Of a DNA stretch of 64,000 bases, positions 9,658-62,600 are shown one piece after another. Position 1 is the stretch's first letter; every line of letters begins with the position of its first letter. The notes beneath the pieces were generated by a model. It did no database searches, had not been told where the DNA came from, and saw nothing but the letters and a program-made list of their open reading frames with translations. Source of the DNA: Austropuccinia psidii (Eukaryota; Basidiomycota; Pucciniomycetes; Pucciniales; Sphaerophragmiaceae). A program made the position numbers and the translations under genes. The stretch covers positions 45,098,185 to 45,162,184 of the forward strand of contig JALGQZ010000003.1 of NCBI GenBank assembly GCA_023105745.1, written 5' to 3'.

Positions 9658-11231
9658 TCATAATTTATGAGACTGTTCATTCCTCCTAGGGGCCCTGAAT
9701 ATCCTCAGATGAAGGTTCCCATCTGGAATGGCATCCTCTGCCAACCATTTTTCTTTATCTACCGTCTGGTCTTTAGATCTGACCAAGTATTGCCTTTGGT
9801 CTTTACCATTCATTCTGATCTTCCTGGCCTTGATGATTTTCTTCACAGGGCTAGGGGAGTATTCCACTTCCACTATCTCTGGTGGAGTGGGATTTTTCTT
9901 CCTAGAGGGGAACTTATCCTCCTCTGTATGGAAGTATGGCTTAACCAAACTCACTGGGAATACTGTGTCTTTCCTAGAAAATTCCTCTGTGAGTTTGACC
10001 TCCACTGCATTTTCCCTATCAGCTTAATGATAGTGAAGGGCCCTACAAATGAGCCTCTCATCTTTTTAGGTCCCTTAATATTGTTGAAGTTGAGTGTGGA
10101 CACTAACACCTGGTCCCATTCTTTGAAGTAAGGCTCCATGTGGCATTTGTCCCACCTCTGCTTGTTGTATTCTTTTGCCTCAGCTATGCATCTAGCAGCA
10201 GTATCACAAGCCCTCTTCCACATATCATGGATATCTTTGGCTGTTGGGTGGATAGTAAGAAGATTTTTCTTCAGGTGATCCACAGGCAATAGGGGGTTCC
10301 ACCCTTTTTCTACCAGGGAGGGTGATTTCCATGTTGTAGAATTCTGACTGGTGTTGTAAGCCAGTTGGACTGCTGGTAGAAGTGTAACCCAGTAATGGGT
10401 AGATCCTTCATGGTCCTTATATTCCATGCCATATACACAGAACCTTCTAAGGATATTCTGCATGGCATGGATGATCCTCTCAGCTAGACCACCTGTCTGT
10501 GGATGGTAAGCTGTAGAAAATGCAAGCTTTGTACCTAGCATGTCATAGAGGTTGGTCCACAATGCAGATGTGAATTTTGGGTCCCTGTCACTAATGATGA
10601 TCTTTGGGACTCCACATGTGGATATGATGTTATTCCAAAATAACAAGGCTGTATCCATTGTTGTGTCTTCCTTATGACATGGTAGGCACCTCACCCTTTT
10701 TCTATACCTATCCACAATGACTAGGAAGGCATCAAAATTTTCTTTTCCTCCTGGGACAAGTCCTGTGACCCAGTCCATATTGATCGTTTGCCATGGGTGT
10801 TTGGGTTTTTCTATATGCTGAAGTAACCCATAGTTCTGCCCATGCTTCATGTTTGCCTTTTGGCATCTTTCACAAGTTTTGATGTATTCACTCAACTCTT
10901 GTTCCCATTCGGGCCACCAAGCTGTTCTTGCTACCCTTTCTTTGGTCCTGTCTTCACTCATGTGTCCCATATAGGGGCAGTCATGACATTGTTTCAGGAT
11001 CAGGGATACATGGTCCCTGTCTATCACTGTGAGTGCACTTGTGTGCTTTTCTCTACGATAGAGAACGCTATCTATAAGGAAAAACTTGTTGTCCTTATAG
11101 TCTCTTAACCAGGGTTCCTCTAACTGGGATTCCAGCTCTGGGCTCCTGTACTTTAGCTGGTGGAGCTGCAACAATAGGCTACACTGTTTGTGTTTGGCAT
11201 ACATATTCATTAATGCATTGAAAAAATTCAT
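9658..11231 (-). pseudogene. Family A integrase with chromodomain-like tail
   Basis: The minus-strand frame 11231-9951 holds the RNase H-integrase linker, the zinc-binding HHCC module (CHDC..GH, then CERC) and the catalytic core with the D, D and E positions in 'INMDWVTG', 'SDRDPKF' and 'GGLAERII'. A frameshift near 9970 moves the C-terminal GPY/F-type and chromodomain-like part ('GKDQRQYLVRSKDQT...KWLAEDAIP') into the frame 10005-9658. Integrase joins cDNA ends to genomic DNA; the C-terminal domain may bias target choice to marked chromatin. It ends about 20 bp before the polypurine tract. The frameshift makes it non-functional. Confidence 0.85.
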
Positions 11232-11426
11232 TATGAAATTCTGAGCAACTGATTCCTAATATGGGAGTTTCTGTCCCTTCTAGTTTGGTGTCTCCACCGT
11301 CTGGGGTACCACTTTCTGGTGCCCATTCAGAAAATCTGAAGTTTTTCTTCCCATCTATTTCTATAAAATGAATAGGAATCTTTGCTGTTACTTCAGGTTC
11401 ATAAGCTGGATTGCTTTTGACATTAT

Positions 11427-11831
11427 CTAATGGCCATCTGAATTGGTGTGGCTTTTCCCCTCCTTGTATATGATGGGCATATTGCCTCTATACTCTGGGA
11501 TGGCTTTTTGCCACCTCAGCATGTGTCTATTGGTAGTATTCATGTTCAGTAAGGACTTCAAGGATGTGCAGTCTGTGTATACTTCAAAGACTGCACCCTC
11601 CAAATAATAGTTGAGTTTCTCTAAAGACCAGACTAAGCATAGGCATTCAGTCTGGGCGGCCCCATACCTGGCTTCTGAATCTTTCAGTTGCCTAGAGATG
11701 TAGCATATAACTCCCTCTCTTGGTTCACCATCTACAATTTGTCTCTGGGGAAGGGCTTCCCCTAAGCCTTGGCTAAATGCTACATCTATGTATAACTTGA
11801 ATGGTAGTTCAAAGTAAGGTAAGATGAGCAC
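11427..11831 (-). pseudogene. Family A RNase H fragment
   Basis: The frame covers the Ty3 RNase H-like domain: the first catalytic aspartate region 'FKLYIDVAFSQGLG', the 'ARYGAAQTECLCLVWSLEK' helix with the glutamate, and 'VYTDCTSLKSLL' with the third aspartate. It would degrade the RNA strand during reverse transcription. The connection downstream to integrase (11232-11426) is in another frame, so the polyprotein is broken here. The domain order is correct between RT and integrase. Confidence 0.8.
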
Positions 11832-12800
11832 AGTTGCATCTGTGAGTTCATGTTTGATCCTCTCATATGCATCCCTTCATTCCTTGGTAATTTTGTAAGC
11901 TACATCTTTTGAAAATGACTTGTATATACTACTAGTTATGTGGGCAAAATTTCTGATGTGGTTTCTGTAGTGGCTAGCAAACCCAAGGAAAGATTGAATA
12001 TCTTTGATGTTTTTTGGTACTGGTTTCAGCAGTACTGCTGCTAATTTAATCTGGTCTATGGCTAGACTAATACCTGAGACTTTGTGTCCCAGTTCCAGTA
12101 ATTCTTGTTGGCCAAAATTGCACTTCTTAAGTGAAATTTTCAGATTGATGGGTGTTCATTTACTTAGTACTATTTCTATGTACTGCACATTGCCTTCCCA
12201 TGTATCTGAGTATATAATGATATGATAAATATATACTACCATCCAGCCTTCCAATATTTCTTCTTGAAATATTGTGTCCATCATCCTTTGGAAATGGGCT
12301 GGTGCATTTTTGATGCCAAATAGAATCCTGGTGTACTCATATATGCCCGTATGGAATATGATTCTGAGTAGTTTCATGTAGTTTGGTTAAACTACATTCT
12401 GGTGGAAGCCTTGCATACAATACATCTTGGTTATGTATTTGGATTTTGCCAGTTTGTCTAGGGAATTAGGTATCCTTCGTATAGGGTACCTATCAGCTTT
12501 TGTGTAGTTATTCAGAGCTCTGAAATTCCCCCACAACCTAGATTTGCCATCATGCCAGGTGATAAGGACAGGAGTGGGGATTTCCACTATTTCATTGTGT
12601 CCTATCTTCCTGTTGACATCCATGTGTAGGAGTTCATTGACATGTTTTTCAATTTCCTTCCTAGTTTCCATACTTGCTGGGTATGGACGTCTTCTCAGCA
12701 TGGGTGGATAGGGTCTTTCCACATCCAGATATAATTCTATATCATGGCCTCTGATTTTTCATAATGGCTCCTCACCAATGGAAAATTCTGAAATATTTTT
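11832..12800 (-). pseudogene. Family A reverse transcriptase fragments
   Basis: Two minus-strand frames, 12722-12387 and 12377-12156, carry consecutive RT blocks: 'VERPYPPML'-type N-terminal residues, 'ITWHDGKSRLWGNFRALNNY', 'GIKNAPAHFQRMMDTIF' and the active-site region. The catalytic motif expected as YxDD reads YIYH ('VVYIYHIIIYSD'), so both aspartates are lost. Stops and frameshifts separate the blocks, and the thumb region continues in poor frames to about 11850. This copy cannot encode an active polymerase. Confidence 0.82.
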
Positions 12801-12894
12801 CCTTAGCATCTTCAGGAAACTGAGTTTTTGTTTACTGGTAAGGGTAGTTCTGAATTGGCCCTCCCTGAATTCATTCAGTAATTCTTCTAGAGGG

Positions 12895-13257
12895 TCATGG
12901 GCACATATTTGGTATATGTAAAGTGAATATTTTTTTCCTTGTTTGTACCAATAGTAATGTTCCTGTTTGCACTATTTTAAATATCAGTACCATACACCCT
13001 CTGGTAGTCTGTTCCCAGTAAAAGCCTTGGATGTGGGCATCTTCAAGCACAAAAAACTCTGGATTAAGTCTGATGTTACCTTTCCTATGGGGTATAATTA
13101 TTTCTTTGATAGTTGTCCCAATTGATGTCATATTCTCTGATTCACTTTTGAAGTTCATTGCCTTGGTTGGCAAGAGCCGGTTTTCCCAATTTGGGAAGTG
13201 TTTATCCAGATAATTTCTGGCCACTATTAAGTAGTGTGCTTCACTGTCAATTATCAA
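12895..13257 (-). pseudogene. Family A aspartic protease fragment
   Basis: The frame begins with 'MIIDSEAHYLIVARNYLDKH', which aligns with the retroviral-type protease active site. The usual DSGA is changed to DSEA, replacing the conserved glycine. The rest of the beta-rich fold and the linker to RT follow in the same frame to 12895. It lies between the Gag zinc knuckle and RT, as in other Ty3 elements. Confidence 0.7.
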
Positions 13258-13377
13258 TGGGTGTTGAGCATTTTCAATACAAACAGTAATCTTTGTGGCT
13301 GTCCCATGTATATATGCTATTCATTAAGTTGGTGTAACTAGGAATGTTTGTGCATCTTGTGTGTGTTTACACAAGTT

Positions 13378-13701
13378 TTAATTTTCAGTGACCTGTGGCA
13401 TGCCTGCTTCTAACTGTGTGTCCTGAGTTTCCAGTGGTGTTTCCTCTTGGTATTCCACTAGAAGCTCTTCTCTTGGGTCTTGGTCCTCATCAGATTGTTC
13501 TATGATGGCATCACCCATAGAGTGTGATTCAGAATTTTCATTGGGGGATTCCTCCTCTGGGACTTTCTCAATGGAATAGACTTTCTTCTTTACATTTGAA
13601 CAGTTGTTAGCACAATGGTCTGCTGAACCGCAATTGTGACAAGAATTTTTCTTCTTAGTCACTTCTTCCACCCTTTCTCTGGGTTTGTCTTTGAGCTCCA
13701 C
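13378..13701 (-). pseudogene. Family A Gag C-terminus with CCHC zinc knuckle
   Basis: The frame contains 'CHNCGSADHCANNC', a CX2CX4HX4C knuckle that would bind element RNA, followed by an acidic linker rich in E, D and S ('EQSDEDQDPREE'). It sits immediately before the protease fragment. Intervening Gag sequence between 13702 and 14178 is broken by stops. Confidence 0.78.
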
Positions 13702-14178
13702 CCTGAAAGGTTGTATTTCTTTGAAACCACTGCTTTTATATGGGGAATATTTCCTTATATGCGTTATCTTCCTTACATCTTGTAAGGTATTTGCAATGTC
13801 ATCTAGAGTGCAATTTTTGTTGCATCTGAATTTTACTGAATGCTCTAGTTCTCCTGGAATTTGTGTCAGGAGTTTGTGATTCCTAATCTGAATATTTATT
13901 TGAGGATCAATGTCTTTAAGTCTTTAAATTTGTCTAAGACACCACTCATATGAATCTTTGTCCACAGAATATTTTTCATTTCCAAATGACATGGTCTTTT
14001 GCCATATAAAAGTACCATTGCTGTACTTTTGGATGATTTGACTCTTCTACCATGGCCAGTTCCTTCAGCCATGGAATTCTTTCATCTCTGTGTACCATAT
14101 ACTAGCATGTTCTTTGAATGCTTTATTGAGTCAAGCTTTAATCCAGTAGTCTAGTATGCTTGGTACATCAATGAAGAT

Positions 14179-15348
14179 TTAATCAATATAATCAATGAGC
14201 TCCATATGATCATACTCTCCTGTTTCAGAGAATTTGGGCCAGTTTGAGGCCTCTGGAAGCTGCTTCAAGGCTTCCTTCTCAGAATAAGACATATTATCTC
14301 CATCTTGGTATTGAGTTGGAGATCTTGCCTTACTCACCAATAAGGAATCTGGTTTGATATCTTCTTGGTGGTACTTATTCTCTAAACCATGGCTCTCTGG
14401 TTGGGGATTAATGTTTTTGTAGAAATTGAACAAGTTGTTTATGTATTGATCCAGACAATCCCTGTCCCTTTTGCAGTGATGTTGCTCTTCAAAGACTTGA
14501 TTCCATAAGAATTCTTCAGAGGCTTTTCTCAATTGAGCACAGCTCTCTTGGATGGCTTTAATTGTAGCCTCTTGTAAGATTGCATTTCTTTTCAACCTTT
14601 CATTTATCCTCTTGAGAGCATAAAATGATTCTTGGATTTGCAATGCAAATTGGGACATCTGTAACCACAGATTATCACTTTTTAAGTTACTCTCAGGTGT
14701 AACAACAATATGTTCTGTCTGAGTGGGGGTAATGTTTCTATTAGTGGGGCTAATGATTCTAGAAGTATTTACAACTATTTATAGATTCTGTGTACTTCTT
14801 TCACAAAGTCCAGCAGCTTCTGGAACATTGGGTCTGACTCACTCTTCCTTTGGTTGAAAGAGGTCTTGTTTTTGCCATTGCATCCTTGTCTTCTCCTGGA
14901 AACTACCTGGGATTGTGAAGAGTGGTGACTCTTGGTCACTGCTCTGTTAGTGCCTGAATGGTGTGAAGACACTGGAGAGCTGGTTTGGTCTACTCAATGT
15001 GAGCCTCAAGGAATCTGAGTATGCCCTGTCTGGGTCAGCTGTTCTTCTATAGCTTGGATAGTGGCTTGATTCTCACTTATCCTGGTTTCCCTCTCCTCCA
15101 GAAGTCTGAAATGTGTGGTAGGATTCCAACCTTTGGTGATTACCATAAGTTCTTTGAGGTCTATTGCTTTGAGACATATCTTCTGGCAACTTGCTCCAAG
15201 TTCTGCCCAGTGGGATGCTAGGTTGAACCTGTTGTTGTTCATGCTCCATTTAAAGAGGTCTTTGAGGAGTTGGTGGAGCTGAAGAACTTGATCCATATCC
15301 CTCCAGTCCTCTTGCTTAACGTTTCTGTTGAACTGGAAAGTGAATGGC
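14179..15348 (-). pseudogene. Family A Gag, part downstream of the B1 insertion
   Basis: Successive minus-strand frames 15296-15006, 14972-14775 and 14658-14179 hold Gag sequence: 'HQLLKDLFKWSMNNNRFNLA', a basic serine/histidine-rich region 'TKSHHSSQSQVVSRRRQG', a coiled-coil-prone helix 'QESFYALKRINERLKRN' and the capsid start 'KEALKQLPEASNWPKFSETG'. Stops and frameshifts separate them. The upstream part lies across the B1 insertion at 25643-26140, and the reading frame is open on both sides of the insertion point when one copy of the ATGGC duplication is counted. Confidence 0.8.
15344..15348. repeat. Target-site duplication of B1, left copy
   Basis: ATGGC directly precedes the LTR terminus TGTCACAGGG. 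The same five bases follow the other LTR at 25643-25647. Confidence 0.95.
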
Positions 15349-16113
15349 TGTCACAGGGGCTCTTCGAAGTGAAGAGGGCCTGGCACTCAGTAAACTGGGA
15401 CTCACTTATGGAGGGCTCAAAGATATGATAAGAATGGATACACTTGAGAGTGTTAAGAATGAATTACTAAAAGAATAAATATAAGAAAGCAGCAACAAAG
15501 AAATAAGAGTAAGAAAAAGAAGAGCCAACCACAAACAATTCCAAGTCCACTGTTTCAACCTGTCAGAATGGAAAGAGAAGGGTTAATAAGGATATGGCCA
15601 CCCAGCTCATACTGTACAGGCAAAGAAAGAAAAAAGGCAAAGACTAACTTAAGATTAAATAAATATAATACCCCAAAAATAAGGGTAAGAATATTCAGAT
15701 AATAATAAATCAACTAAATTAATTAACTGGGGAAAAGTCCCCAGGGGGGAGAAAGAGGGGCTGGTATATGTGAGAATCACCAGCCCTGATCCAGAGGAAG
15801 AATTTTCATGAGAATAATTGATGATTGAATTGAGTCTGGCCAATACAGGTCCTGTACGGCTGTACAGAACCTGTACAAGAGGTGTGGTGTATTTGAGTGA
15901 TCATACAGTTCCATATTGGTGTATTGAAACTTTATTTGGTGAATCCAACCTGTACAGGTGTTGACAGGCTGTATGGATGTATCAAGCTGTATGCATGTTT
16001 CAGAATGAAGATTGCTGAAACTGAATGCTGATGCAGATACTGGATTTGCTGATTTGGGGTGTTTGAGTGGGTGTATGAATGAATACCCTTACCCCTGATG
16101 GATGGTTGTTACA
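15349..16113 (-). repeat. B1 3' LTR, 765 bp
   Basis: On the plus strand the LTR starts TGTCACAGGGGCTCTTCGAA and ends GGATGGTTGTTACA. It is 17 bp longer than its partner because of a purine-rich stretch near 15630. It contains the same TATA-like CATATAC (minus, 15770-15764) and CTGGGGA/TCCCCAG hairpin (15727-15744) as the 5' LTR. Confidence 0.95.
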
Positions 16114-16126
16114 GTATCCCCCTCTT
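16114..16126 (-). promoter_or_regulatory. B1 polypurine tract
   Basis: The minus strand reads AAGAGGGGGATAC immediately before the 3' LTR terminus TGTAACAACC. This is the expected primer for plus-strand DNA synthesis. Confidence 0.85.
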
Positions 16127-17088
16127 GAAAACTGGTGGGCTCCTGAACACCATAATACCCTGCCACTGTTGAGTGGCATCTCAATATCCCCACATTTTTT
16201 CAAAAAAATTTCTTTTTTAATTTTCTTTCCTCTTGGCCATTATCCTGAAAATCCTTCATTACTTCTCCCCTGCCAAATTCAATTGATTCCCCCCTTTTTC
16301 CAAGCTTGAGTGAGTATTCCTTTCAGAATATGCCATTCTTTTCTTTTGATTCAATCAGCCATGCCTTGGGATGTGGCCTTGGGATATGTCCCAGAATAAA
16401 GGCCATCGAGCACTTGTGCTCAAAAATTGGTGCCCAATGAGTATATGACTTGTACTCATTGGCCTAGACTTAATCCAATGAATGAATGAAACTTTCCTCC
16501 AAGGGGTCTTGTCCCCATGATCCAAGGAATTGGCCTCAGGCAGCCCTCCAAGTGGTTTTTGGGCTGTGGCCTCCATCCTGAGTGATCTTGATGCAATTTG
16601 CTTTTTATGGCCTTTTTGGCCTTGCTGGGTGTTTTAGTGATTGGGGCATTTTTTTTTGATTTTTTTGGCCATAATAGGCCTTTTTGAGTCTTTGGGGTCC
16701 TACGGTCTGTGGGCCGTACGCCGCGGTCCGCGGTCCGTGGGGGCTATTGGAGGCCCCCAGGACCAAAATGGAGCCCCTGGGCCCAAATTTGCTGGGGACC
16801 CAGGGTGACCAAGGGGCCCAGAAATGGCCCATTCCCAAATTTCACCATATATGGCCTGGACCCATTGAAGGGGTCCAGGACCATCAAGATCTTGGCCTCC
16901 CCCAAAGTTGCAGGGGAGGCCCTGGGTGATGAGTTCAGCCCCAAAGGGGTGTGAACCTTCACCTTAGAGGCTTTGAGGTGGGGCATAATTGAGTTATGGC
17001 CCCATTTCCTTGAGTCAAATTTCTTTTTCTTGATGTGGAGTGGATTGATTCTGACGTCTTGAATCTTCTGCTTGCACATTCTTCAGTT
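16127..17088. other. B1 3' non-coding region, GGCC-rich and palindromic
   Basis: This interval lies between the polypurine tract and the antisense gene. From about 16560 to 16960 it becomes unusually GC-rich for the window, with many GGCC and GGCCC words, and a palindromic stretch ggccgtacgccgcggtccgcg near 16713. No open frame on either strand looks coding. It presumably holds the 3' UTR of the retroelement and the promoter of the plus-strand gene; no clear TATA box is visible for the latter. Confidence 0.5.
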
Positions 17089-18329
17089 ATGAGTTCCAAA
17101 CTGACTGAACTCACTGAATCTTCCCCTTCTGCACCGCCACCGTCTGTTCTTCATGGTTCTGGCGTCTTCAGTCGATTGTTTTCTCCCTCCATGGCGTCTT
17201 CTGGCCATTTTGACCCCTCCCAAACATATGATGGGTTCAGAGCAGTTGAAGTTCTTGATCCTGCCTGTACTGAGTGTTTGGCCAGGGGTAAGGATTGCTT
17301 TCAACATTACAATCCTCGATCGTCAAAATGCCATTTCTGCTTTATTGGGAAGAAGCCATGCCGCCGTACCAGATCAACTTTTTCCCAGGTCAGAAGGCAC
17401 TTATGGAGTAGGAAGGATGGGCGTTATGGGCAGGAATTCCCCATTCTTGGGGAACCTACCCCTGATGCCACTTCTGGATTTTCTCAATGTGAGTGATTTG
17501 CATTTCTTGGTTGAATTGATGCTGATATTTTGATGTAGTGACTGGTTCCAGGCAGAGGGATGTGGCCAGATGGACTAATGTTGGAGGGCCCATTCCAATT
17601 GGTGGTAGGCCCATACACTACAGCTCAGAAATCCCAATTTCAAGGACCAATGCTGATGGAGTGGTGAAAGTAGTGAAAAAACTAAGAAGAATTGTTGATT
17701 CCCCAACAGATCCAGATGCTGAAGGAAGTGATGAGTTGGATGGTGAAGAAGTTCAAGTTATTCCTCATTCAAGTGGCCATCCATCCAGCAATTCCTCTTC
17801 TCAACCTCTTGCCAACAACAGATTCCAAAGCCAAGTGATTCCCGGCACTCCAAGAACCTTCCAACCAATGCTTGCTTCCATTCCTACAACCCTTCCTCCT
17901 CCTTCACCAACTACTTCCCATACCACCAGGCCTGCCTTGAATCCAGCAGTAAGACCATCTCCAGTTCAACAGCCCAGAAACTCACCCATAAACACCTCCC
18001 GTCAACTCCAACCTGTGGCCAGCTCCAGCAGAAGAAGAGATGGATTGTCCCCTTTGCCGTTTCCTGCCGCTCAAGTATTTCAAAGAAGAGAACGTTGGCC
18101 TATCCGGGTTACCAGAGAAGATCCCAACGCGGCTAGTGAAAATCAAGATGCTGTGGCCAGATTGTTCAGGAGGGTTGATAGAAATAGCAGAGAGGTGATT
18201 ATGTATGCCAATGACAGGACTATTCCAGGTACTGCTGTTGAAGAAATGGCTGCAAAATTTGCCTGGTATGAAGATGAGTTGATAAATGATTTCCAGAGAA
18301 CTTTTGATGATTTGGGTAGAGATAACTAG
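17089..18329 (+). CDS. Antisense spliced gene in B1 with Zn2Cys6-spaced cysteine cluster
   Basis: Exon 1 (17089-17488) and exon 2 (17539-18329) flank a 50-bp GT-AG intron (17489-17538, GTGAGT...TGTAG); the join is in phase and gives 396 residues. Residues C60, C63, C70, C81, C84 and C91 follow CX2CX6CX10CX2CX6C, within the fungal Zn(II)2Cys6 zinc-cluster consensus. A basic tail (RRTRS...RRHLWSRKDGR) comes next. The middle (about 190-300) is rich in P, S and T and looks disordered. The C-terminus (about 315-396) is charged and probably helical, ending in GRDN. The frame has no stops, unlike the element's own gag-pol. The gene runs opposite to gag-pol, between the chromodomain and the 3' LTR. 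The protein resembles repeat-encoded hypothetical proteins of Austropuccinia, recalled rather than searched. DNA binding or element regulation is an inference. An upstream in-frame ATG at 17035 would add 18 residues. Confidence 0.8.
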
Positions 18330-19098
18330 ACTCCTTTTCCTTGTTTGTGTTTGGTTTTCCTTCTATCCCCACTCTTATAAATACTAAAAAATGAAAAAAA
18401 AAATGGAACCTCCCAATACATGATTTGGGGAGGGGATGCTGCTGCTTTAAAGAAAAAAAAGAAAGAAAATTATACAAGTAAAGAAAGAAAGAAAAATAAA
18501 AGAATAAGAGAAAATGAGAGTAAAGAAAGAAATAAAGAAAAATCCTGATGGTTGGTCCTTCTTGTGGTGAGTTGCTTGATTTTGGCCAATAAGTGTCTGA
18601 AAAAATGAAAACCAAGCATTTTGATGCTCACCGAGTGGCCAAGGTAATGTTTTACAAGAAGTAGAACCCTCAGGGATGCATACCAGGAGATGGAACTTAC
18701 TTTCATAACTTCAACTCCCCACCAAGCACCATAAAACTGAAAAGAATTGCCATAAATGGCTTCTGAGATGAATTGCCATAAATGACTTCTGAAATGAATT
18801 GCCGTAAATGACTTGAAGTAATGAATGTCTTGAATTATGATGATTGGCATAGAATGAAATGATAATAAAGAAAGCAATGAAAAATAAAGAAAGAAAACAT
18901 TGGGCCATATCTTGATAAGGTCCAAATGGAGGGTATTGATGTTGTATGCTTCCTGAACCTGTCCAAAGAAATGACAAGTGCTCACAAAGTGGCCAAGGTG
19001 ATGGTTACAACAACATATGGGTAGAATACCCCCTTAAAGGTGCATGCCAGGAGAGGAACTTACTTTCATAACTTCTTCTCCCCACCAAGCACCATAAA
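18330..19098. repeat. B1 region after the chromodomain: direct repeats and a purine tract
   Basis: No gene is seen. A plus-strand purine run (AAAG/GAAA words) fills about 18448-18540. Three 26-bp direct repeats of gaattgccataaatgacttc type lie at 18744-18821. A longer direct repeat pairs 18617-18738 with 18968-19100: both contain a 'gtggccaaggt(a/g)atg' block, then 'ggaacttactttcataactt' and 'ccccaccaagcaccataaa', about 350 bp apart. The second copy overlaps the 3' end of the chromodomain frame. This is likely UTR sequence of the sense or antisense transcript. Confidence 0.65.
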
Positions 19099-19296
19099 TC
19101 AAACTCTTGAGGTATTTGGACCAGGCTTGTCTGGATACAATGAATGGAAATCCTTGACAAGGTCTGGTGAGTTGGTAAGGTTGGAAGATGGTTCCCAAGT
19201 GGTTCTTTCTGGGTCTTCACTGAATCCTTTCCACTCTACAAGATACCATAATTTACCTCTTTTGAGTTTTGAGTCCAGAACCTGAGCCACTTCTCA
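19099..19296 (-). pseudogene. B1 chromodomain, cut off by an in-frame TGA
   Basis: The 64-codon frame reads 'AQVLDSKLKRGKLWYLVEWK' followed by 'GFSEDPERTTWEPSSNL', a typical chromodomain with its aromatic cage residues (W/Y in YLVEWKG, W in TWEP). It is in the same frame as pol and is separated from it only by the TGA at 19296-19294, probably a TGG-to-TGA transition. In chromoviruses this domain follows integrase and binds modified histone tails, directing insertion. Here it would not be translated with integrase unless the stop were read through. Confidence 0.85.
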
Positions 19297-22212
19297 TTCT
19301 TCTTGCTCTTCCACTAAGACTGGTGGTGGCGGCAATTGATGACGATTTGGGATAGTTGAATGCTTGACTGGTTCTAATAAGAACGCATGGAATACAGGGT
19401 GAACTGTCTTCCATTGCTGAGGCAACTTGAGGTGATATGCATGGCTGCCAATCTTCTTCAGAACTTCAAAGGGTCCCAACCATCTTTCTGATAACTTCTT
19501 GGTGGGTCTTGTTGTCTTGATGTTCTTGGAAGCTAGCCATACTTTGTCCCCAGGTTGGAAATCAGGTGGAATTGCCCTATTTCTATCTGCATACTTCTTG
19601 AATCTCCTTATTGCTGACTCTAATTCTTCTTTGACAACTTGCTGTACTGATTGGAGTTTTGTTGATAACTTTCCAGCAGGTGAGTCTTGAGAGATATGGA
19701 TTGAGTCAAAGCTGGGATTTCTTCCATAAATGGTGAAAAAGGGTGATTGCTTGGTTGATGAATGTTCTGCATTATTATACGCAAATTCAGCCAGAGGGAG
19801 CCAGGTGTGCCAGTCATCTTGATGATAGCTGACATACATCCGAAGGTACTGTTCTAGTATCTGATTTACCCTCTCTGTCTGTCCATCTGTTTCAGGGTGA
19901 AATGCAGTTGAAAGATCTCTTGATATCTTGAGCTGCTGACATAACTGGGTCCAGAATGATGAAACAAATAAGGAACCTCTATCACTAACAATACTTACTG
20001 GAAGACCATGTTTGGAAAATACATGACTAATGAATATTTGAGCTAAGTCCAGTGCAGTGATTGATCCATAAGTTGGAATGAATATTGCCATTTTTGAGAA
20101 TCTGTCTACAATTACTAAGATTGAGTCAAAGTTGTTTGACAGAGGCAATTGAGTGATGAAGTCCATTGATAAAGAATTCCAAGGACCAGATGGAATTTGA
20201 AGAGGCTTGAGTAATCCAAACTTCTTATGGTGGATGTTCTTGTTTCTTGAACATTGCTGACATGAGGACACATAGTCCTTGATGATTTGATTCATGCCAG
20301 CCCAAAAAAAATCCCTCTTGATGAGCTTGAGGGTCTTCTCCTGGCCAGGATGGCCAGCCAATGGTGAATCATGACGCCTTTGAAGAATGTCCAATTGAAC
20401 TTCATGATTGCTTGGAATATCTACTCTATCTTTGAACAATAATAATCTTGCTTGAGGTTCAAGAGAATAGTCTGGGACTGATTCTCCTCTTGCTAATTTC
20501 TTGAGGATCTCCTTATAGTCTTTGTCTTGCCATACTTGTCTTTGAATCTGATCAACTAAATCTGAAAACATTTCAGCTTTTATGGAAAAGAATCTTGACT
20601 CTTGAATTTCATTTTGCTTGAGAACTTGATGAAAGTTTTGAGGATTCTTGCTGATGAAATCCACCCCCCTCTCTGGGTACACGTCGTCCCGACGTGACAA
20701 GGCATCTGGTAAAGTGGCCAGCCTGCCTGGGCGGTAAGTGATAACAAAGTGAAATTCAGACAAAAATTCAGCCCAACGGGCTTGACGACAAGTAAGGACT
20801 TTAGAGGACATAAAATATTGGAGAGAACAATGGTCTGTCAAGACCTCAAAGGAATCAGAAAGAGAAAGGAGAAAGGCTCTCCAGCGCTTGAGAGCCCAAA
20901 CTATGCCAAGGAGTTCCTTGTCATGAATTTCATAGTTGAGCTCAGCTGGTAAGAGCTTGCGACTATCAAATGCAATGGGATGCTTTCCCGAGTCATTCAC
21001 CTGACTCAGTACAGCACCCAAGGCATAATCAGAGGCATCAGTCTCTACAATAGTTGGAAGAGAAGGATTAAAGTGAGATAAGATAGGAGCAGAGGTGAAA
21101 GCTTCTTTGAGTGCTTGAAACTGACTAAGAGCTTCCTCATTGAAGATGAAAGGAGAATCTTTTTTGAGAAGGGAAGTGAGAGAAGTGATTTTTTTGGAAT
21201 AATTTTTAATGAAACGACGATAAAAATTGGCAAAGCCAAGAAAAGATTGAAGAGCCTTGATGTTTTTGGGCTGAGGCCAATTGAGGACTTGCTGAACTTT
21301 TGAAGAATCCATCTTGAGGCCATCACTTGAAACAACATAGCCCAAGTATTCCACACTTGAGGCATGGAATACACACTTGGAGGCTTTGGCAAACAGATTA
21401 TTGTCCCTCAGTCTTTGGAGGACAGAGGCCACATGTTTGACATGTTCCTCCTCAGAACTGGAAAAGACCATAATATCATCTAAATAAACCACAACAAACA
21501 CATCCAAAAAATCTGCAAAGATATCATTTACTAGATTTTGGAAAGAAGCAGGAGCATTGGTCAAACCAAATGGCATGACCAAATACTCATAACTGCCATA
21601 TTTGGTTCTAAAGGCAGTTAAGTGCTCATCCCCCTCTTTGATTCTCAGAAGGTTATATGCACCACGCAAATCTATCTTGGAGAAGATAGTGGAACCGTTG
21701 AATACGGTAAGAAGCTGGTTCATAGGAGGAACAGGGTATCTGTTCTTCCTAGTGACAGCATTGAGTTTGCGGTAGTCAACACACAAACGAAGACCTCCAT
21801 CCTTTTGCTTGACAAAAAGGACAGGTGCTCCTGTTGAAGAGGAGCTTGGTCTAATGAAACCTTTCTCTAAATTCTCTGAAATGTAGGCCCGCAGTGTTTC
21901 TGACTCTTGATTTGATAATGAGTAGATAACACCAATTGGAGGTAGAAGACCCTCCAATTCGATATGGTGATCACAGGTGCGGTGTGGAGGAAGTTTCTCT
22001 GCTTTCACCTTGGAGAATACATCCAAATAATGGTGATAAGCAGGAGGGACAACCTTCAACACAGTTTCAATTTCTTCTGGCTCTTCCTCCTCATCCCACT
22101 GCTCCTCCAGGGATGCATGAAAAGACAAGGGAGGAAGGTCCATATCCCCTTGAAAGAGATGAAGTGAAGATATGGCAACATCTTCTCCAACATCCTTTAT
22201 CTCTTTGAAGAC
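19294..22212 (-). CDS. pol: B1 Pol: RT, RNase H and integrase, long open frame
   Basis: The minus-strand frame is open for about 970 codons from just after a TAA at 22215-22213 to a TGA at 19296-19294. Counting from the first ATG (22143), RT covers about residues 80-260 with an intact YLDD (220-223). RNase H follows (about 350-470: 'TIVETDASDYALGA', 'YEIHDKELLGIVWALKRWRA', 'TDHCSLQYF'), then integrase with its HHCC zinc module ('RHDSPLAGHPG', 'CQQCSRNK'). The catalytic D, D, E are in 'LSMDFITQLP', 'VSDRGSLF' and 'DGQTERVNQ'. The C-terminal GPY/F module ('RWLGPFEVLKKIGSHAYHL') is complete. Catalytic residues look intact, so this is a recently inactivated polyprotein. ATG 22143 is only the first Met, not a natural start. 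Confidence 0.93.
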   Translation of the reverse strand, partial: VFKEIKDVGEDVAISSLHLFQGDMDLPPLSFHASLEEQWDEEEEPEEIETVLKVVPPAYHHYLDVFSKVKAEKLPPHRTCDHHIELEGLLPPIGVIYSLSNQESETLRAYISENLEKGFIRPSSSSTGAPVLFVKQKDGGLRLCVDYRKLNAVTRKNRYPVPPMNQLLTVFNGSTIFSKIDLRGAYNLLRIKEGDEHLTAFRTKYGSYEYLVMPFGLTNAPASFQNLVNDIFADFLDVFVVVYLDDIMVFSSSEEEHVKHVASVLQRLRDNNLFAKASKCVFHASSVEYLGYVVSSDGLKMDSSKVQQVLNWPQPKNIKALQSFLGFANFYRRFIKNYSKKITSLTSLLKKDSPFIFNEEALSQFQALKEAFTSAPILSHFNPSLPTIVETDASDYALGAVLSQVNDSGKHPIAFDSRKLLPAELNYEIHDKELLGIVWALKRWRAFLLSLSDSFEVLTDHCSLQYFMSSKVLTCRQARWAEFLSEFHFVITYRPGRLATLPDALSRRDDVYPERGVDFISKNPQNFHQVLKQNEIQESRFFSIKAEMFSDLVDQIQRQVWQDKDYKEILKKLARGESVPDYSLEPQARLLLFKDRVDIPSNHEVQLDILQRRHDSPLAGHPGQEKTLKLIKRDFFWAGMNQIIKDYVSSCQQCSRNKNIHHKKFGLLKPLQIPSGPWNSLSMDFITQLPLSNNFDSILVIVDRFSKMAIFIPTYGSITALDLAQIFISHVFSKHGLPVSIVSDRGSLFVSSFWTQLCQQLKISRDLSTAFHPETDGQTERVNQILEQYLRMYVSYHQDDWHTWLPLAEFAYNNAEHSSTKQSPFFTIYGRNPSFDSIHISQDSPAGKLSTKLQSVQQVVKEELESAIRRFKKYADRNRAIPPDFQPGDKVWLASKNIKTTRPTKKLSERWLGPFEVLKKIGSHAYHLKLPQQWKTVHPVFHAFLLEPVKHSTIPNRHQLPPPPVLVEEQEE

Positions 22213-22800
22213 TTAATCTCTCAATGGAAGTAATGACTGAGAGGGAATAATGGAAGTGATATGGACAGAAGAAGGAAGGGAAGGTGTCTTAAGTTCACCA
22301 ACCAGAGCAACACTGTTGACAGCAGTGGCAAAGTCATTACTAGTAGGAGGAATAATACCACTAGAATCCTTACGACTAGAATCATAGGTGATCAATCCAT
22401 TTTTCCAATCAATAATGGGATTAAAATGGTAAAGGAAATCATAGCCCAATATCAGGTCTTCTCCCTTGGGTGAATCTATGATAAAGAAGTCCCATTCAAA
22501 GCTTGGGAAGGAAGGCAAGTCAACTACCCACTTGGTATAATGGGTGATGAACAAGGCAGGGGATTCATTAGAATCCAAAATGAAAAGAGGAATCTTTTCA
22601 GGGAGCTCTGACAGAGTCAATGAGTACTCGAGAACAGAATTCTTTGCAATAAAAGAGTTTGTAGCACCAGAATCAATGAGAATACTATAAAAAGAATCAG
22701 AGACAGAAGAGAAAATGAGAAATTTTAAAGATTTCTTGACACTAGTATTCAGAGTGCACAATTGTGCTCTTGAAGGAAATAAGTGAGAACCATTGAACAC
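22213..22800 (-). CDS. B1 protease segment, ends at an in-frame TAA
   Basis: The 195-codon frame includes the retropepsin active site 'ILIDSGATNSFIAKNSV' near residues 40-57 and the second conserved block 'GEDLILGYDFLYHFNPIIDW'. It would cleave the Gag-Pol polyprotein. The TAA at 22215-22213 is in the same frame as the RT frame downstream, so one nonsense change separates protease from RT. Upstream it runs out of frame with Gag, with the CCHC knuckle between. Confidence 0.85.
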   Translation of the reverse strand: MFNGSHLFPSRAQLCTLNTSVKKSLKFLIFSSVSDSFYSILIDSGATNSFIAKNSVLEYSLTLSELPEKIPLFILDSNESPALFITHYTKWVVDLPSFPSFEWDFFIIDSPKGEDLILGYDFLYHFNPIIDWKNGLITYDSSRKDSSGIIPPTSNDFATAVNSVALVGELKTPSLPSSVHITSIIPSQSLLPLRD

Positions 22801-24175
22801 ATCATGATTCCCACTCAGGCTTTTCCCTGCTTGCTAGGGAAGCCTCTTGATGATGACCCAGGCTTGTTCTGAAGTCTCTTGAAGCATTTTTCAATTGGGT
22901 GCTTTCCACCACAATAAGTACACAACCCCTCTTTAATCCTCCTCTCCTTTTCAGAACCGATTAACTTATTGTCCTTATTGAGGAGAGCAGCATGGGGCTT
23001 GTCCTTTGAAGATTGGAATTGCTTGCCCTTCTTGTTCTTCTTCTGGTGAGGCCTCTTTGAAGATGAGTTTTGAGAGGCCTAGACTGATTGGATCCAATGA
23101 CTGGAGGCTTCTTCTCTTGATTGCCACCCTTTTCTTTTTGCCTCTCATGATATCTTGTGTCTAATTCTAAGGTGACATCCATAAGTTCTTGAAGAGTATC
23201 AAAAGTTCCAGGGTGAGAAGCCAACTGATCCAATAATCTTGATGCCAATCCTCTTCTGTAAACATGGATATAAGCTCTTTCCCCCCAATCTCCAATTCTT
23301 GACATTAAGCTTCTGAAATCTGCAATGTACAAGGAAACATGACCACTTTCCTTCATCCTCAAATTGTTCAACTCTTGTTCAGCTTTCCTGACTTCATTGG
23401 GGTCACCAAACAGAGTGAATAATTGAGATTCAAACAATGGCCAATTATTGAGGAGGTAGGAAGGGTCTTCATTGGAAATATTTGAGAGGTAAGGTTCAAT
23501 CCACTTGCCAGCTCTACCAGTGAGAAAAGAAGTTGAGTACAAAACCTTCTTCCTGTCAGAGAAGAAGTTTGCTGGATCATTATGGAAAATTAGTTGACAG
23601 GATTGGATAAATCCTCTCAACTTATGAGCTTGAGTACCATCAAAAGAATCAGGTGCCTTCATGGATGGAGTCTTGAAAGCAGGGGCTTTGGAATTGTCCC
23701 TGGGAGCAACTGCTTGAGTGAGTTGCCCCATGAATTGAGTCATCTGCTCCATCATCTTGAGGAGACTTGGATCAGTTTGAGAGACAAGAGGTTGACTAGA
23801 AAGGGCTAGATTAGAACCCTGAGGCACCTCTGGAGCATTTGCCAAGGCATCTGCCACTTCAGTTTCCCCAGAATCTTCCTCTTCCACAGACTCTTCCCCC
23901 TCTTCATCTTCAACTTCCCCTTGTCTTGCTCTTGCACCTTCAGACATGCCAGGGTAGCCACCCAAAAGTCCAGAGAAAGATCTTGATCTTCTAGATTTCA
24001 TTCCACCTCTTCTTGAGGGTGCTGCTCCTTCCATTGGTGGTCCTCTGTCTAAATTTACACTCAGTTGATGAACTGATGGTGTGCGGTCAAGAGGAGCCCT
24101 TGCTGTAGGAGTGAGAACAGCTTGAATTCTTTGGGATCTAGTATTTTTGGCTGGGGGACTATGCTGAACTGGCAT
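22801..24175 (-). pseudogene. gag: B1 Gag with a C-terminal frameshift before the CCHC knuckle
   Basis: The ATG at 24175 starts 'MPVQHSPPAKNTRSQRIQ'. Residues 95-130 are acidic (EDEEGEESVEEED). The Gag capsid-type domain lies about 165-345: 'KAPDSFDGTQAHKLRGFIQS', 'SFLTGRAGKWIEPYLSN' and 'YIADFRSLMSRIGDWGERA'. The open frame ends at 22961 after a frameshift near 23075, where a lysine-rich tract continues in another frame. The zinc knuckle CTYCGGKHPIEKC (CX2CX3HX4C) is readable near 22925-22885, before the protease. Gag would form the particle and bind RNA. It is otherwise free of stops for about 370 codons. Confidence 0.85.
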
Positions 24176-24894
24176 TTTGAAATAATGAAATAAAACTTGA
24201 TGGTATTAAGGACAATCAAAACTTGGCCAAATCAATCACAATAAAATCTTGATGAATCTTGAGGAATCAATTCAAATCTTGAGGAATCAAATTCAATCAA
24301 CAGTCAAATAAATTCAATCAATAAACAATCAATTCAAATCAAATATCAATAATCTTGAGGAAATCAATAATCAATCAATATTCAATCAATAATCAATCAA
24401 TAAATGTCTTCAATATGAAATCAAGTCTTGAGGAATCAATCAATCAGTTCAAATCTTCAGAAATCAATTCAATATCTTGATGAGTCAAATCAAATCAATA
24501 ATCAAAATTGATTCTTGAGGATAAATCAATATCTTGAGAGTTCAAAGTCAATAAATCCAATAAATCCTGAATCAATAACCCAAATGAATCCCAATGAATA
24601 ATCCAATCAATTAAACCAATCAATAATTCCTAGATAAAACCTGAATAAGAACACAGAAAAGATTTTGATTGATAAAAAATAAAAATGAAGTGATGAAATG
24701 GTCAGCAATGATTAAGAAAAGAAAAAGAATCAATTTTCATAAGAATGAAATGAGTGAGATGAAAAATTGATAAGAGAGAAAAATCATGATCATTAAGAAT
24801 CATAAAGTCATGAAGAGATCATAATTTGATGAATAAAAAGAAATGAATATAAATGAATGAAAAGAAAGAATCAAATATGAGTTAATTAATTTAA
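24176..24894 (-). other. B1 5' leader, AATCAA/CTTGAGGAATCAA-rich
   Basis: The untranslated leader between the 5' LTR and gag is dominated on the plus strand by irregular repeats of aatcaa, ttcaatcaa and cttgaggaatcaat from about 24240 to 24620, then becomes purine-rich. The B2 element has a leader of similar style at 50375-51022. No gene is visible. Confidence 0.6.
24881..24893 (-). promoter_or_regulatory. Putative self-priming primer binding site of B1
   Basis: The minus-strand 13-mer TAAATTAATTAAC begins one base after the end of the 5' LTR. It is perfectly complementary to GTTAATTAATTTA in the LTR (minus, 25256-25244), which lies about 40 bp downstream of a TATA-like CATATAC and so near the expected 5' end of the RNA. 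No tRNA-type TGG primer site is seen at the LTR edge. The arrangement is that of Tf1/sushi self-priming. The motif is AT-rich; the B2 covariation at 51023-51035 strengthens the call. Confidence 0.6.
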
Positions 24895-25642
24895 TGTCAC
24901 AGGGGCTCTTCGAAGTGAAGAGGGCCTGGAACTCAGTAAACTGGGACTCACTTATGGAGGGCTCAAAGATATGATAAGAATGGATACACTTGAGAGTGTT
25001 AAGAATGAATTACTAAAAGAATAAATATAAGAAAGAAGCAACAAAGAAATAAGAGTAAGAAAAAGAAGAGCCAACCACAAACAAGTCCAAGTCCACTGTT
25101 TCAACCTGTCAGAATGGAAAGAGAAGGGTTAATAAGGATATGGCCACCCAACTCATACTGTACAGGCAAAGAATAACTTAAGATTAAATGAATATAATAC
25201 CCCAAAAATAAGGGTAAGAATATTCAGATAATAATAAATCAACTAAATTAATTAACTGGGGAAAAGTCCCCAGGGGGGAGAAAGAGGGGCTGGTATATGT
25301 GAGAATCACCCGCCCTGATCCAGAGGAAGAATTTTCATGAAAATAATTGATGATTGAATTGAGTCTGGCCAATACAGGTCCTGTACGGCTGTACAGAACC
25401 TGTACAAGAGGTGTGGTGTATTTGAGTGATCATACAGTTCCATATTGGTGTATTGAAACTGTATTGGGTGAATCCAACCTGTACAGGTGTTGACAGGCTG
25501 TATGGATGTACCAAGCTGTATGCATGTTTCAGAATGAAGATTGCTGAAACTGAATGCTGATGCAGATACTGGATTTGCTGATTTGGGGTGTTTGAGTGGG
25601 TGTATGAATGAATACCCTTACCCCTGATGGATGGTTGTTACA
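24895..25642 (-). repeat. B1 5' LTR, 748 bp
   Basis: The plus strand starts TGTCACAGGGGCTCTTCGAA and ends GGTTGTTACA. By eye it is about 98.7% identical to 15349-16113 in aligned positions. It carries the presumed promoter: CATATAC at 25299-25293 (minus), the CTGGGGA/TCCCCAG inverted repeat next to 25256, then the start of R. Confidence 0.95.
25293..25299 (-). promoter_or_regulatory. TATA-like element of the B1 5' LTR
   Basis: The minus strand reads CATATAC about 40 bp before the self-complementary 13-mer (25256) proposed as RNA start. The same block CATATA(C/G), followed by the same hairpin, is kept in the B2 LTR (51461-51468), and CATATAC is also found in the B3 solo LTR near 46651. Confidence 0.5.
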
Positions 25643-25647
25643 ATGGC
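25643..25647. repeat. Target-site duplication of B1, right copy
   Basis: ATGGC directly follows the LTR terminus GTTGTTACA and matches 15344-15348 exactly. Confidence 0.95.
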
Positions 25648-59739: not shown

Positions 59740-60439
59740 AACTCATTGTATTGCTTTCAAGCTGGCTCGTAGAAGTTTCCCACCTCAATTTATTCTCCGA
59801 GGAAAGCAGCAGCAGCGAGAGAGCTTATAGAGGAGTCATACAAGCAGTACCATAACTGAGAACATTTACTACAGTCTATAGTTTTGCAAATGGATGATGG
59901 GTAGTCTCACCAACCAAGTTCCCATTCGCCAAAGGTATCTTCTGTATAAAAGACTTGATGAAAAATAATGTACAGTACGGATTTGTTGGAAACCATAGGC
60001 GTGCTCCGTATTTGTACAGTGTACATCACGACGACAGATTACCCACTTACAGAGACTCACGCATAATCCTCATTCCAATGTCAAACATCATCAAAGGGGT
60101 ACTAAGGGCCTTACTGCCACCTAAGGGTGGGCCCCGTGGGAATACCTTGCCATTGAGTCCATACCGGTACCGGACTATCCGGAGAATTTTTTTTTTTTTG
60201 TTCTTCCTCCTGGACCGTATTCCAGAACCGCCCAGAATGTTCACTCGGGCAGGGAGTGCGGGGAGTTAAGTGCCCCAGGATTTTTCTCTCACTCCGTCTC
60301 AACTTCCCTCCCTCTCAATTTACTTTTTTATGACAATGTTTTTCTTTCTCTGTCCTTCCTATTTCTCAACGTTTCTACCTTTTTTATTGTAATAATTTTT
60401 TTTTTTAAAAAAAAAACCTTTCCAAATCCAACACCAACA
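59740..60439. other. Mixed-composition intergenic region before the hAT gene
   Basis: The region is more GC-balanced than the window average. It includes a perfect interrupted palindrome ccacctaagggtgg at 60117-60130, T runs near 60190 and 60390, and a direct match (cttactgccacc) to a site past the hAT gene at 62809-62820. No credible gene is visible. Confidence 0.45.
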
Positions 60440-62600
60440 ATGTCATCCATAGTACATTCGATTCAATCAACACCAGTTGATTCACCAAACCCATCACTAC
60501 CATCACTCAGTGAACCCCCAATCAATGCAAAGCGGTCTTGGGTATGGCTTTATTTCTCCAAAATTGACAACAAACATGTTGAATGTCAAGTTAATAGTCA
60601 AAGTGGATCACATTGCAAGAAAATTCTCAAGCATGATCAAACAGGCAGCACCAAATCTATGAGCGATCATCTCTGGGCATTACATCAATTGATCAACCCA
60701 AAGACTACTAACCTCGACAAGACGGTCACATTGGACAAGTATGTCCAGCATCAGAATCCAAAAAAGGTAATCCTTTTACTCTAGATCTGTTTTGGTACAT
60801 GATTGTAACTGACTTTTGGTTTTCTGAGCAGAGTCTTTCGGCAGAGACGTTAAAAACAGCCCTAATCTATTGCATTTGCGATTGCGATCTCCCCATGTTG
60901 GTATCCAAATCAACTTCTTTTCAAGCTCTCCTGGAGCTCTGCAACCCATCGGTACTGAACATTTTAGTATGGCGAAAGGCCCTCACAGCCCATCTTCCAA
61001 ATGTTTATTTTTTTCACCAAGAGAAACTCCGCGCACTCATTTCTGACAGTGGAAAACAACTCTCTTTCACCACCGATACCTGGACAAGTCCAAACATTAA
61101 AGCCTTTATGGCTATCACTGGCCATTTTATGGACAAAGAATTCAACCTTGTCTCTGTCCTCTTAGGTTTGACGGAGATTGAAGGTATATTTTTTTTCTGT
61201 GAAAGCCATTTTTGTCTCTATTAAATTGCTTTTTTTTAGGTAATTATTCGGGTCAGTCATTGGCCTACCAATTCCTTACTACTCTCAAGCAGTATGACCT
61301 TGAAGACTCAATCATTGCAATAACAACTGATAATGCCTCGGTCAATCAACAAATGGCCCAAGAGTTACAAGACTCAACCAAGTCATTTGCAGCCAAAACA
61401 CAGCTTATTGGCTGCATGGCTCATACACTTCATTTATCAGCCCAAGATGGACTAAAAGCCCTTGCCAAGGGTCCGTCAACTCATGAAGATCAAGATATTG
61501 TAAATGTGGGACCAATGTCAATATCAACTCTAATCAACCCACCAGACGGCCTGCGATTAAATTATAACTCGATCATCTCTTGTATCTCCCGCCTGGCATC
61601 ATACTTGTGCCAGAGCCCTCAGCGACGTGAAAAGTTCATATCAATGGTCAATATTTTTTATGAAGCACAGAAAGTAAATACGCTACTCACCAATGTCATC
61701 ACCTGATGGAACTCAACATATGATATGCTTGAACGTGCATACTCACTCAAGGATGCCTACGATCAATTTTGTACCCCCAAAAACATGGAAGCTTATTGTA
61801 TTTCATCCCTTGAGTTGGAGAAAGTTAAGGTGATGATTGATTTCTTACTCCACCTCTGTCATATGTGGAACAAAATACCCCACCATCAATTACTCTTTAC
61901 CTTTATATATTTCCCTCATTAAACATATCAATGAGGTGAGTTTTTTTTCCAAAAATTTATTTTCCCAATATTGACAATTTATATTTAGGCTTGTGAGAAA
62001 TATGATGTGCACCAAATTGAGCCAGCTGCCACAGCAATGACTGAAAAGCTCACCAAATACCTGCAACTGTTACTAACAAAAAAACCAGCAATTTGTGCTT
62101 CGATCCTTGATCCTCAATTCAAATTACAATTTTTCTATTTGTATGACACCACACTAGCAAAATTTGAAACTTCAGCATCCCAACTCGCTGGAATCTTTCA
62201 AAGTGAAGCCACCAAGGAATTCAAAGGAGTAAGCCCAATGCCACATCTAGGAGAGCAAGAACAAAGAGGGTTCTTTGATGACATATATTTGTCATCATCA
62301 GGGGAGGGATCATCTTTAGGGTTGGAAATTCAACAATTCTTTTCAGAACCACCTGAACCTAAATCAACCAATGTGTTACAATTCTGGAAGTCTCGAGCAA
62401 CAGTCTTCCCTACTCTTGCCTCAATGGCCTGTAAGTACCTCTCAATCCCTGCTACAAGTGCGCCATCCAAAAGAGTTTTCTCTGGGGGAAGGAAGATTAT
62501 TACCTATCAACGTGTTTCTCTCTCCTCAATGCATGTGGAACAAATTGCATGTGTCAAGAATTGGGCTCGCATCTTTGGTCATACCTATTACAATCAATAA
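60440..62600 (+). pseudogene. hAT-superfamily transposase with BED-type zinc finger, four exons, nonsense and frameshift
   Basis: Exons are 60440-60766, 60832-61183, 61240-61935 and 61989-62600, with introns of 65, 56 and 53 bp (GTAATC...GCAG, GTATAT...TTAG, GTGAGT...TTAG) that join in phase. Exon 1 has a BED-like CX..C..H..H finger ('VECQVNS..SHCKK' to 'DHLWALH'). The catalytic core shows 'SFTTDTWTS', 'AITTDNASVNQQMAQEL' and 'GCMAHTLHLSAQDGLK' (the hAT C-H helix). Exon 4 carries the hAT dimerisation region 'VFPTLASMACKYLSIPATSA' plus 'PSKRVFSGG'. A TGA at 61704-61706, probably from CGA, and a frameshift near 61860-61900 inactivate it. It would excise and reinsert its own DNA. I could not define terminal inverted repeats or the 8-bp duplication. 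Confidence 0.88.

Follow-up and report, generated by a model that had tools for sequence, protein, structure and literature searches.

What does a gene that runs against gag and pol do for the retrotransposon that carries it, and does it belong to the element at all? The question is raised by a stretch of 64,000 nucleotides from the myrtle rust fungus Austropuccinia psidii (contig JALGQZ010000003.1; hereafter the window), in which a sequence-only reading placed a two-exon plus-strand gene in a Ty3 element, opposite to gag-pol and in the interval from the chromodomain to the 3' LTR; coordinates, strand, intron and product all agree with that placement. The gene is genuine, borne by the element and under purifying selection, and it has an open frame, a conserved intron pattern and a constant place in the element (in the window copy, its close copies and one diverged element). 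The preferred reading, with a probability of roughly 0.6, is that of an antisense accessory gene (aORF-3R type) which belongs to a Ty3 chromovirus lineage and whose product regulates the element, probably binding zinc and probably working in the nucleus.

Host element and antisense gene

The assembly that holds the window comprises 1.015 Gb in 84 contigs, and the A. psidii genome has been reported to consist of ~90% transposable elements, mostly Ty3/gypsy (PMC8063080, PMC12774611). The element in question lies on the minus strand at 15349-25642, flanked by a 5-bp target duplication, ATGGC, which is found in the sequence at 15344-15348 and 25643-25647. LTR alignment gives a 5' LTR of 748 bp (24895-25642) and a 3' LTR of 765 bp (15349-16113), both on the minus strand, with 10 mismatches over 748 aligned positions and 17 gap positions. 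Between them, on the same strand, follow gag with the Ty3 capsid (22961-24205), an aspartic protease frame (22213-22833), a stretch for RT, RNase H, integrase and SH3_Tf2-1 (19294-22212), and a chromodomain called by eye (about 19096-19290). With a Ty3-type gag, the RT-RNaseH-IN order, the chromodomain seen by eye, LTRs and a 5-bp target duplication, the element is a Ty3 chromovirus, and its lineage is massively expanded and very abundant in this fungus. As claimed earlier, gag-pol of the window copy is damaged by two stops and a frameshift: the in-frame stop that ends the protease frame before RT is missing from all 17 other copies having that stretch, a second pol stop, seen in the window copy at 19291-19293, precedes the chromodomain, and gag, set against 16 of 18 copies, is short by one base. 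By eye, two further elements can be discerned in the window, namely a strongly decayed second retroelement with integrase and protease-like frames that adjoins the first (9658-15350, minus strand), and hAT transposase-like fragments with a BED-type zinc finger start and a hAT dimerisation-like end (60125-62600, plus strand).

The antisense gene occupies the plus strand. Exon 1 (17089-17488), for which relatives were found, encodes residues 1-133 plus one base; the intron of 50 bp (17489-17538) has a GTGAGT donor, a branch-like CTGAT and a TAG acceptor; exon 2 (17539-18329) encodes an acidic stretch, a Pro/Ser-rich middle and a C-terminal helical pair, the helices being predicted on the relative P0004. 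Removal of the intron yields a product of 396 aa. In the window copy the frame is antisense to gag-pol and sits between pol and the 3' LTR, as in the aORF-3R type. The LTR is separated from the antisense start codon by 975 bp, which would leave room for a putative promoter of its own, and the last ~190 of these align at 63-77% with the corresponding part of a diverged element.

Copies of the gene were gathered in two sets. Twenty close copies were fetched, drawn from the gene's 40 best matches; all 40 scored matches (window included), the best 40 of 3376 first-look candidates, are 98-100% identical over the full length. A protein search against the genome, in which 118 of 9232 candidates were scored, supplied twelve further relatives, and 10 of the 12 were chosen since neither exon match had a flagged stop. 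Five of them are clearly diverged (L033, L039, L042, L043 and L044; exon DNA identity 75-89%). Many members of the family thus have the gene in conserved form, close copies and diverged loci alike.

The intron is a conserved feature of this family. By position, the GTGAGT donor is present in 19 of the 20 close copies, the exception being L029, in which a one-base deletion in exon 1 shifts the position and the donor is also different. It recurs in 10 of the 12 further relatives, with L038 having GTGAGA and L033 being without the 5' part of the intron. The branch-like CTGAT and a TAG or CAG acceptor are each found in 11 of the 12, L043 having lost both branch site and acceptor, and 9 of the 12 carry a one-base insertion inside the intron. 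Among public A. psidii proteins, 44 of the 120 listed matches contain the joined exon boundary under a strict motif, and 2 of the 120 run into the intron. This conserved pattern suggests that the gene is spliced once. Because the intron persists over rounds of retrotransposition, it would not be spliced from the genomic RNA, as expected of a gene on the opposite strand.

The cysteine cluster and the encoded protein

Six cysteines at residues 60, 63, 70, 81, 84 and 91 (codons 60-91; 17266-17361, plus strand) are spaced CX2CX6CX10CX2CX6C, exactly as first read, and the protein has no other cysteine. The fungal Zn(II)2Cys6 domain (PF00172) has the spacing consensus CX2CX6CX5-12CX2CX6-8C. The sequence-only reading noted a fit to this consensus, and assignment of the cluster to the class is supported only in part: its spacing agrees with the consensus and its cysteines appear to be ancestral, but profile and alignment searches fail to place the protein in the family. 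By a hand count of placements, six cysteines within a span of 32 residues would show such spacing by chance about once in 10,000. Among the listed database relatives, cysteine prevails at every one of the six sites (72-87% of ungapped rows), losses are scattered over copies, and P0117, which is among the most diverged relatives, keeps all six. Within the cluster, His73 (78 of 94) and His82 (85 of 95) show roughly the same degree of conservation as the cysteines, so that a ribbon, a mixed Cys/His site or other ligand sets are possible. The cysteine(-histidine) cluster is probably zinc-binding.

A true Zn(II)2Cys6 binuclear-cluster protein, that is, a Gal4-type transcription factor encoded by the element and binding its LTR or an internal promoter, would account for the spacing, the cysteines being majority residues throughout, and the acidic stretch downstream of the cluster. 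An unfiltered HMM of six yeast domains (Gal4, Lac9, Ppr1, Put3, Hap1 and Leu3; five of the six sequences entered by hand) is also weakly positive, with a best E of 0.0044 and 0.051 for the window protein among the 68 sequences searched. Nevertheless, PF00172 is matched by none of 55 members at E<=10 (Pfam with HMMER's filters). The hhalign comparison with the six yeast domains is weak and out of register, pairing the first half of the cluster with the second half of Gal4, and its score is equalled by 4 of 60 nulls that preserve the cysteine columns and, when every column is permuted, by 1 of 60. The AlphaFold models, for which P0004 and exon 1 served as inputs, show the cysteine region at low confidence (block pLDDT about 34-57) and without the second, metal-binding helix, and the two conserved histidines open the way to other ligand sets. 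The yeast regulators share the cysteine spacing of the present protein but differ in that they are not element-encoded and in their loop residues, besides the missing profile match. A Gal4-type factor is therefore a doubtful reading. Equally tentative, and unlikely, is its extension, in which the lineage would encode on its opposite strand a zinc-cluster transcription factor that binds the promoters of the element and times its expression, forming a self-contained two-strand regulatory circuit; if true, its carrier would be a lineage of retrotransposons that contributed to the growth of a fungal genome to the gigabase scale.

Searches for other domains were similarly unproductive. Pfam, applied to the whole protein, 55 relatives and four cysteine fragments, returned no zinc-cluster family; the names that did come up were weak, and none was shared by more than 5 of 55 members (for example, a metallothionein model at E 0.079). 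A PDB sequence search gave no match at E<=10, and Foldseek on the P0004 model gave three matches at E<=10, of which none reached E<=0.001. The C-terminus of P0004 is modelled as two helices (block pLDDT about 57-78). That neither Pfam nor AlphaFold offers a domain match or a confident fold counts against the accessory-regulator reading preferred here.

According to that reading, the gene would be driven by a promoter of its own, with transcription running opposite to gag-pol, and the transcript would be spliced once to give a 396-aa protein with an N-terminal Cys(-His) cluster, a presumably disordered middle that is acidic and Pro/Ser-rich, and a C-terminal helix pair. The protein would most likely act in the nucleus on the DNA, RNA or chromatin of the element itself, regulating either element expression or a nuclear replication step. 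The analogy to known antisense genes, the candidate metal site and the acidic, disordered-looking middle together point to a nuclear regulator.

Origin of the gene and selection on its frame

Two protein searches bear on where the gene came from. All matches listed (120 of 706 and 120 of 822, many common to both, the second list including its own query) are A. psidii hypothetical proteins of the same family, and an IMG/VR scan gave no relative of the antisense protein. At least 159 proteins of the A. psidii MF-1 database (P0002-P0160, "hypothetical protein O181_...") belong to the family. Many of the 120 listed proteins examined are without one cysteine, most often replaced by phenylalanine, and, having lost it, these look like decaying copies annotated as genes. 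Caution is thus called for, as many A. psidii "hypothetical proteins" are members of a transposon gene family. The sequence-only reading had also offered capture of a host gene, which selection then kept. An intron on the gene's own strand is what a captured gene region would have, but no domain matches, and the 240 listed rows hold no relative beyond the family or A. psidii. We consider capture improbable, with the proviso that a host source could be hidden given that 120 of 706 and 120 of 822 matches were listed.

The intactness of the frame in the window copy, which had been taken as a mark of selection beside a broken gag-pol, does not serve as one, because the frame is broken in 6 of the 20 close copies. 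The other 14 are free of stops and length changes; by the same measure 8 of 18 copies with a nearly full-length pol keep the pol frame. In the five diverged relatives, 19 exon indels were counted, every one a multiple of three, these not being independent events and one of them, in L033, being the end of a deletion that extends into the intron; three near copies carry exon indels of +1, -11 and -35. Since copies were chosen by the antisense gene itself or for the lack of flagged stops, the counts of intact frames and of three-base indels are biased upwards. dN/dS is less touched by the choice of loci.

Selection was measured on shared variants, defined as those present in at least two of 21 sequences (the window and the 20 close copies). 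In the antisense frame, 15 of these are synonymous, 11 are non-synonymous and 1 is a stop, where the same base changes would lead one to expect 7.6, 18.6 and 0.9, respectively (binomial P 0.002 on synonymous and non-synonymous variants). The resulting dN/dS is ~0.30, with the other five frames at 0.75-2.03, and it falls among the values obtained in the same way for gag (0.21), pol (0.19) and protease (0.39). The frame is thus not a product of chance. For singletons, most of which probably postdate insertion, the ratio is 0.62 in the antisense gene and 0.53 in pol.

Diverged relatives tell the same story at a greater distance. Between the window and the five diverged relatives, dN/dS is 0.25-0.34 at a dS of 0.38-0.54. 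The six lineages form 15 pairs, 12 of them at 0.25-0.39, and the near copy L035 contributes six more at 0.23-0.33, giving 18 of 21 pairs at 0.23-0.39. The remaining three, among L033, L043 and L044, which are partly decayed and stop-bearing, give 0.51-0.70; that the three closest diverged copies do so counts against the accessory-gene reading. Constraint is strongest over residues 50-115, which include the cysteine cluster (0.19, ten pairs of five lineages), followed by residues 291-396 (0.21), and is weakest in the Pro/Ser-rich stretch of residues 201-290 (0.51).

These tests also bear on whether the antisense RNA itself is functional, by pairing with the genomic RNA or feeding small-RNA silencing, the protein frame being incidental. 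Retroelement antisense transcripts can act so, as discussed in PMC7264820, but the constraint is frame-specific. In six pairs, the coding frame is the lowest at 0.25-0.34, four other frames lie at 0.97-1.74, and one reverse frame, whose third positions coincide with those of the coding frame, lies at 0.31-0.49. Together with exon indels in multiples of three, this makes an RNA-only function very improbable. A decaying chance open frame without function, to which the six broken copies might point, is hardly credible as it is contradicted by both the dN/dS tests and the indels.

The association with the element is retained in a diverged element, L045, in which an LTR piece is followed by the antisense gene and then by pol and protease on the other strand. 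The fetched stretch holds a single LTR piece, no gag was matched within it, and pol is split into pieces. Relative to the window copy, amino acid identity is 70-77% for the antisense gene and 84% for pol, and dN/dS is 0.26 and 0.25, respectively, with protease and chromodomain at 0.54-0.56. The dS of L045 is uneven, being 0.56 in the antisense gene, 0.33 in pol and ~0.14 in protease and chromodomain.

A second unevenness concerns the window copy and the copy L028, which share a pol segment (about 20149-20948) that is 99% alike between them and from which seven other copies in the comparison diverge by 7-13%; part of their LTRs is also closer to each other than to these seven, and most other bins are 94-99% alike among the compared copies. 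Judging from the uneven dS along L045 and the pol and LTR parts common to the window copy and L028, these are probably mosaic elements whose parts have recombined.

Two copies of a non-coding repeat of ~115 nt lie on the minus strand in the interval from pol to the antisense gene (18979-19098, at the end of the chromodomain frame, and 18625-18735), and a search of 22 sequences found the repeat at 44 places (39 distinct). The first ~60 nt of the repeat, which hardly vary among most copies or in L045, include a possible stem, GGGGAG ... CUCC, around a GAAGUUAUGAAAGUAAGUUC hairpin. As the dS of the neighbouring coding sequence is also low, this near-identity does not in itself indicate special constraint. 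Rfam gave no match at E<=1 on the element, repeats included, and the repeat folds no better than shuffles (z -0.08 and 0.04).

Comparison with known antisense genes

Extra genes on the antisense strand had been described at the outset as known from a few plant retrotransposons, which is correct for plants but too narrow. In Boty-like elements of Botrytis cinerea, an antisense gene, brtn, has been found (Zhao et al. 2011 as cited in PMC7264820 and PMC8365987). Like the present gene, brtn is an extra gene antisense to gag-pol in a fungal element; unlike the present element, Boty resides in an ascomycete, and the likeness is one of description. The available passages on brtn in these two papers mention neither a cysteine cluster nor an intron.

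In plants, gene23 of maize Grande, the corresponding gene of rice RIRE2 and ORF4 of Silene Retand are antisense, lie between pol and the 3' LTR, and are present in most copies of their families (PMC7264820, PMC11963269). The product of Grande gene23 is nuclear and the gene has its own promoter (PMC7264820), and TRP28 of Retand, a non-chromovirus, is predicted to be DNA-binding (PMC11963269). These genes share with the present one the antisense position between pol and the 3' LTR, but they belong to plant elements and carry other domains (TRP28, SMC); no word on zinc or introns was found in the available text of PMC11963269.

Outside these elements, HTLV-1 HBZ differs from the present gene in place and host. 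HBZ is a bZIP protein. It is named in PMC11963269 as an antisense, nuclear product of a retroelement, and its likeness to the present gene lies in being antisense and retroelement-borne, to which a nuclear location may be added if the present product indeed acts there.

Among the listed titles and abstract openings of open-licence papers, no report was found of an antisense gene in an element of a rust or another basidiomycete, or of one linked to Zn2Cys6, and words beginning with "antisense" are absent from the main texts of PMC12210899 on rust genomes and PMC8063080 on the A. psidii genome. Antisense accessory genes are already known in plants and in the ascomycete element Boty; for a rust chromovirus, no earlier report of such a gene that is spliced and has a conserved cysteine cluster came up in these listings. 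PMC7264820 gives the function of antisense accessory genes in LTR retrotransposons as unknown; the present gene, with its measurable selection, its single conserved cysteine cluster and its large family, makes the function of an antisense retrotransposon protein directly testable.
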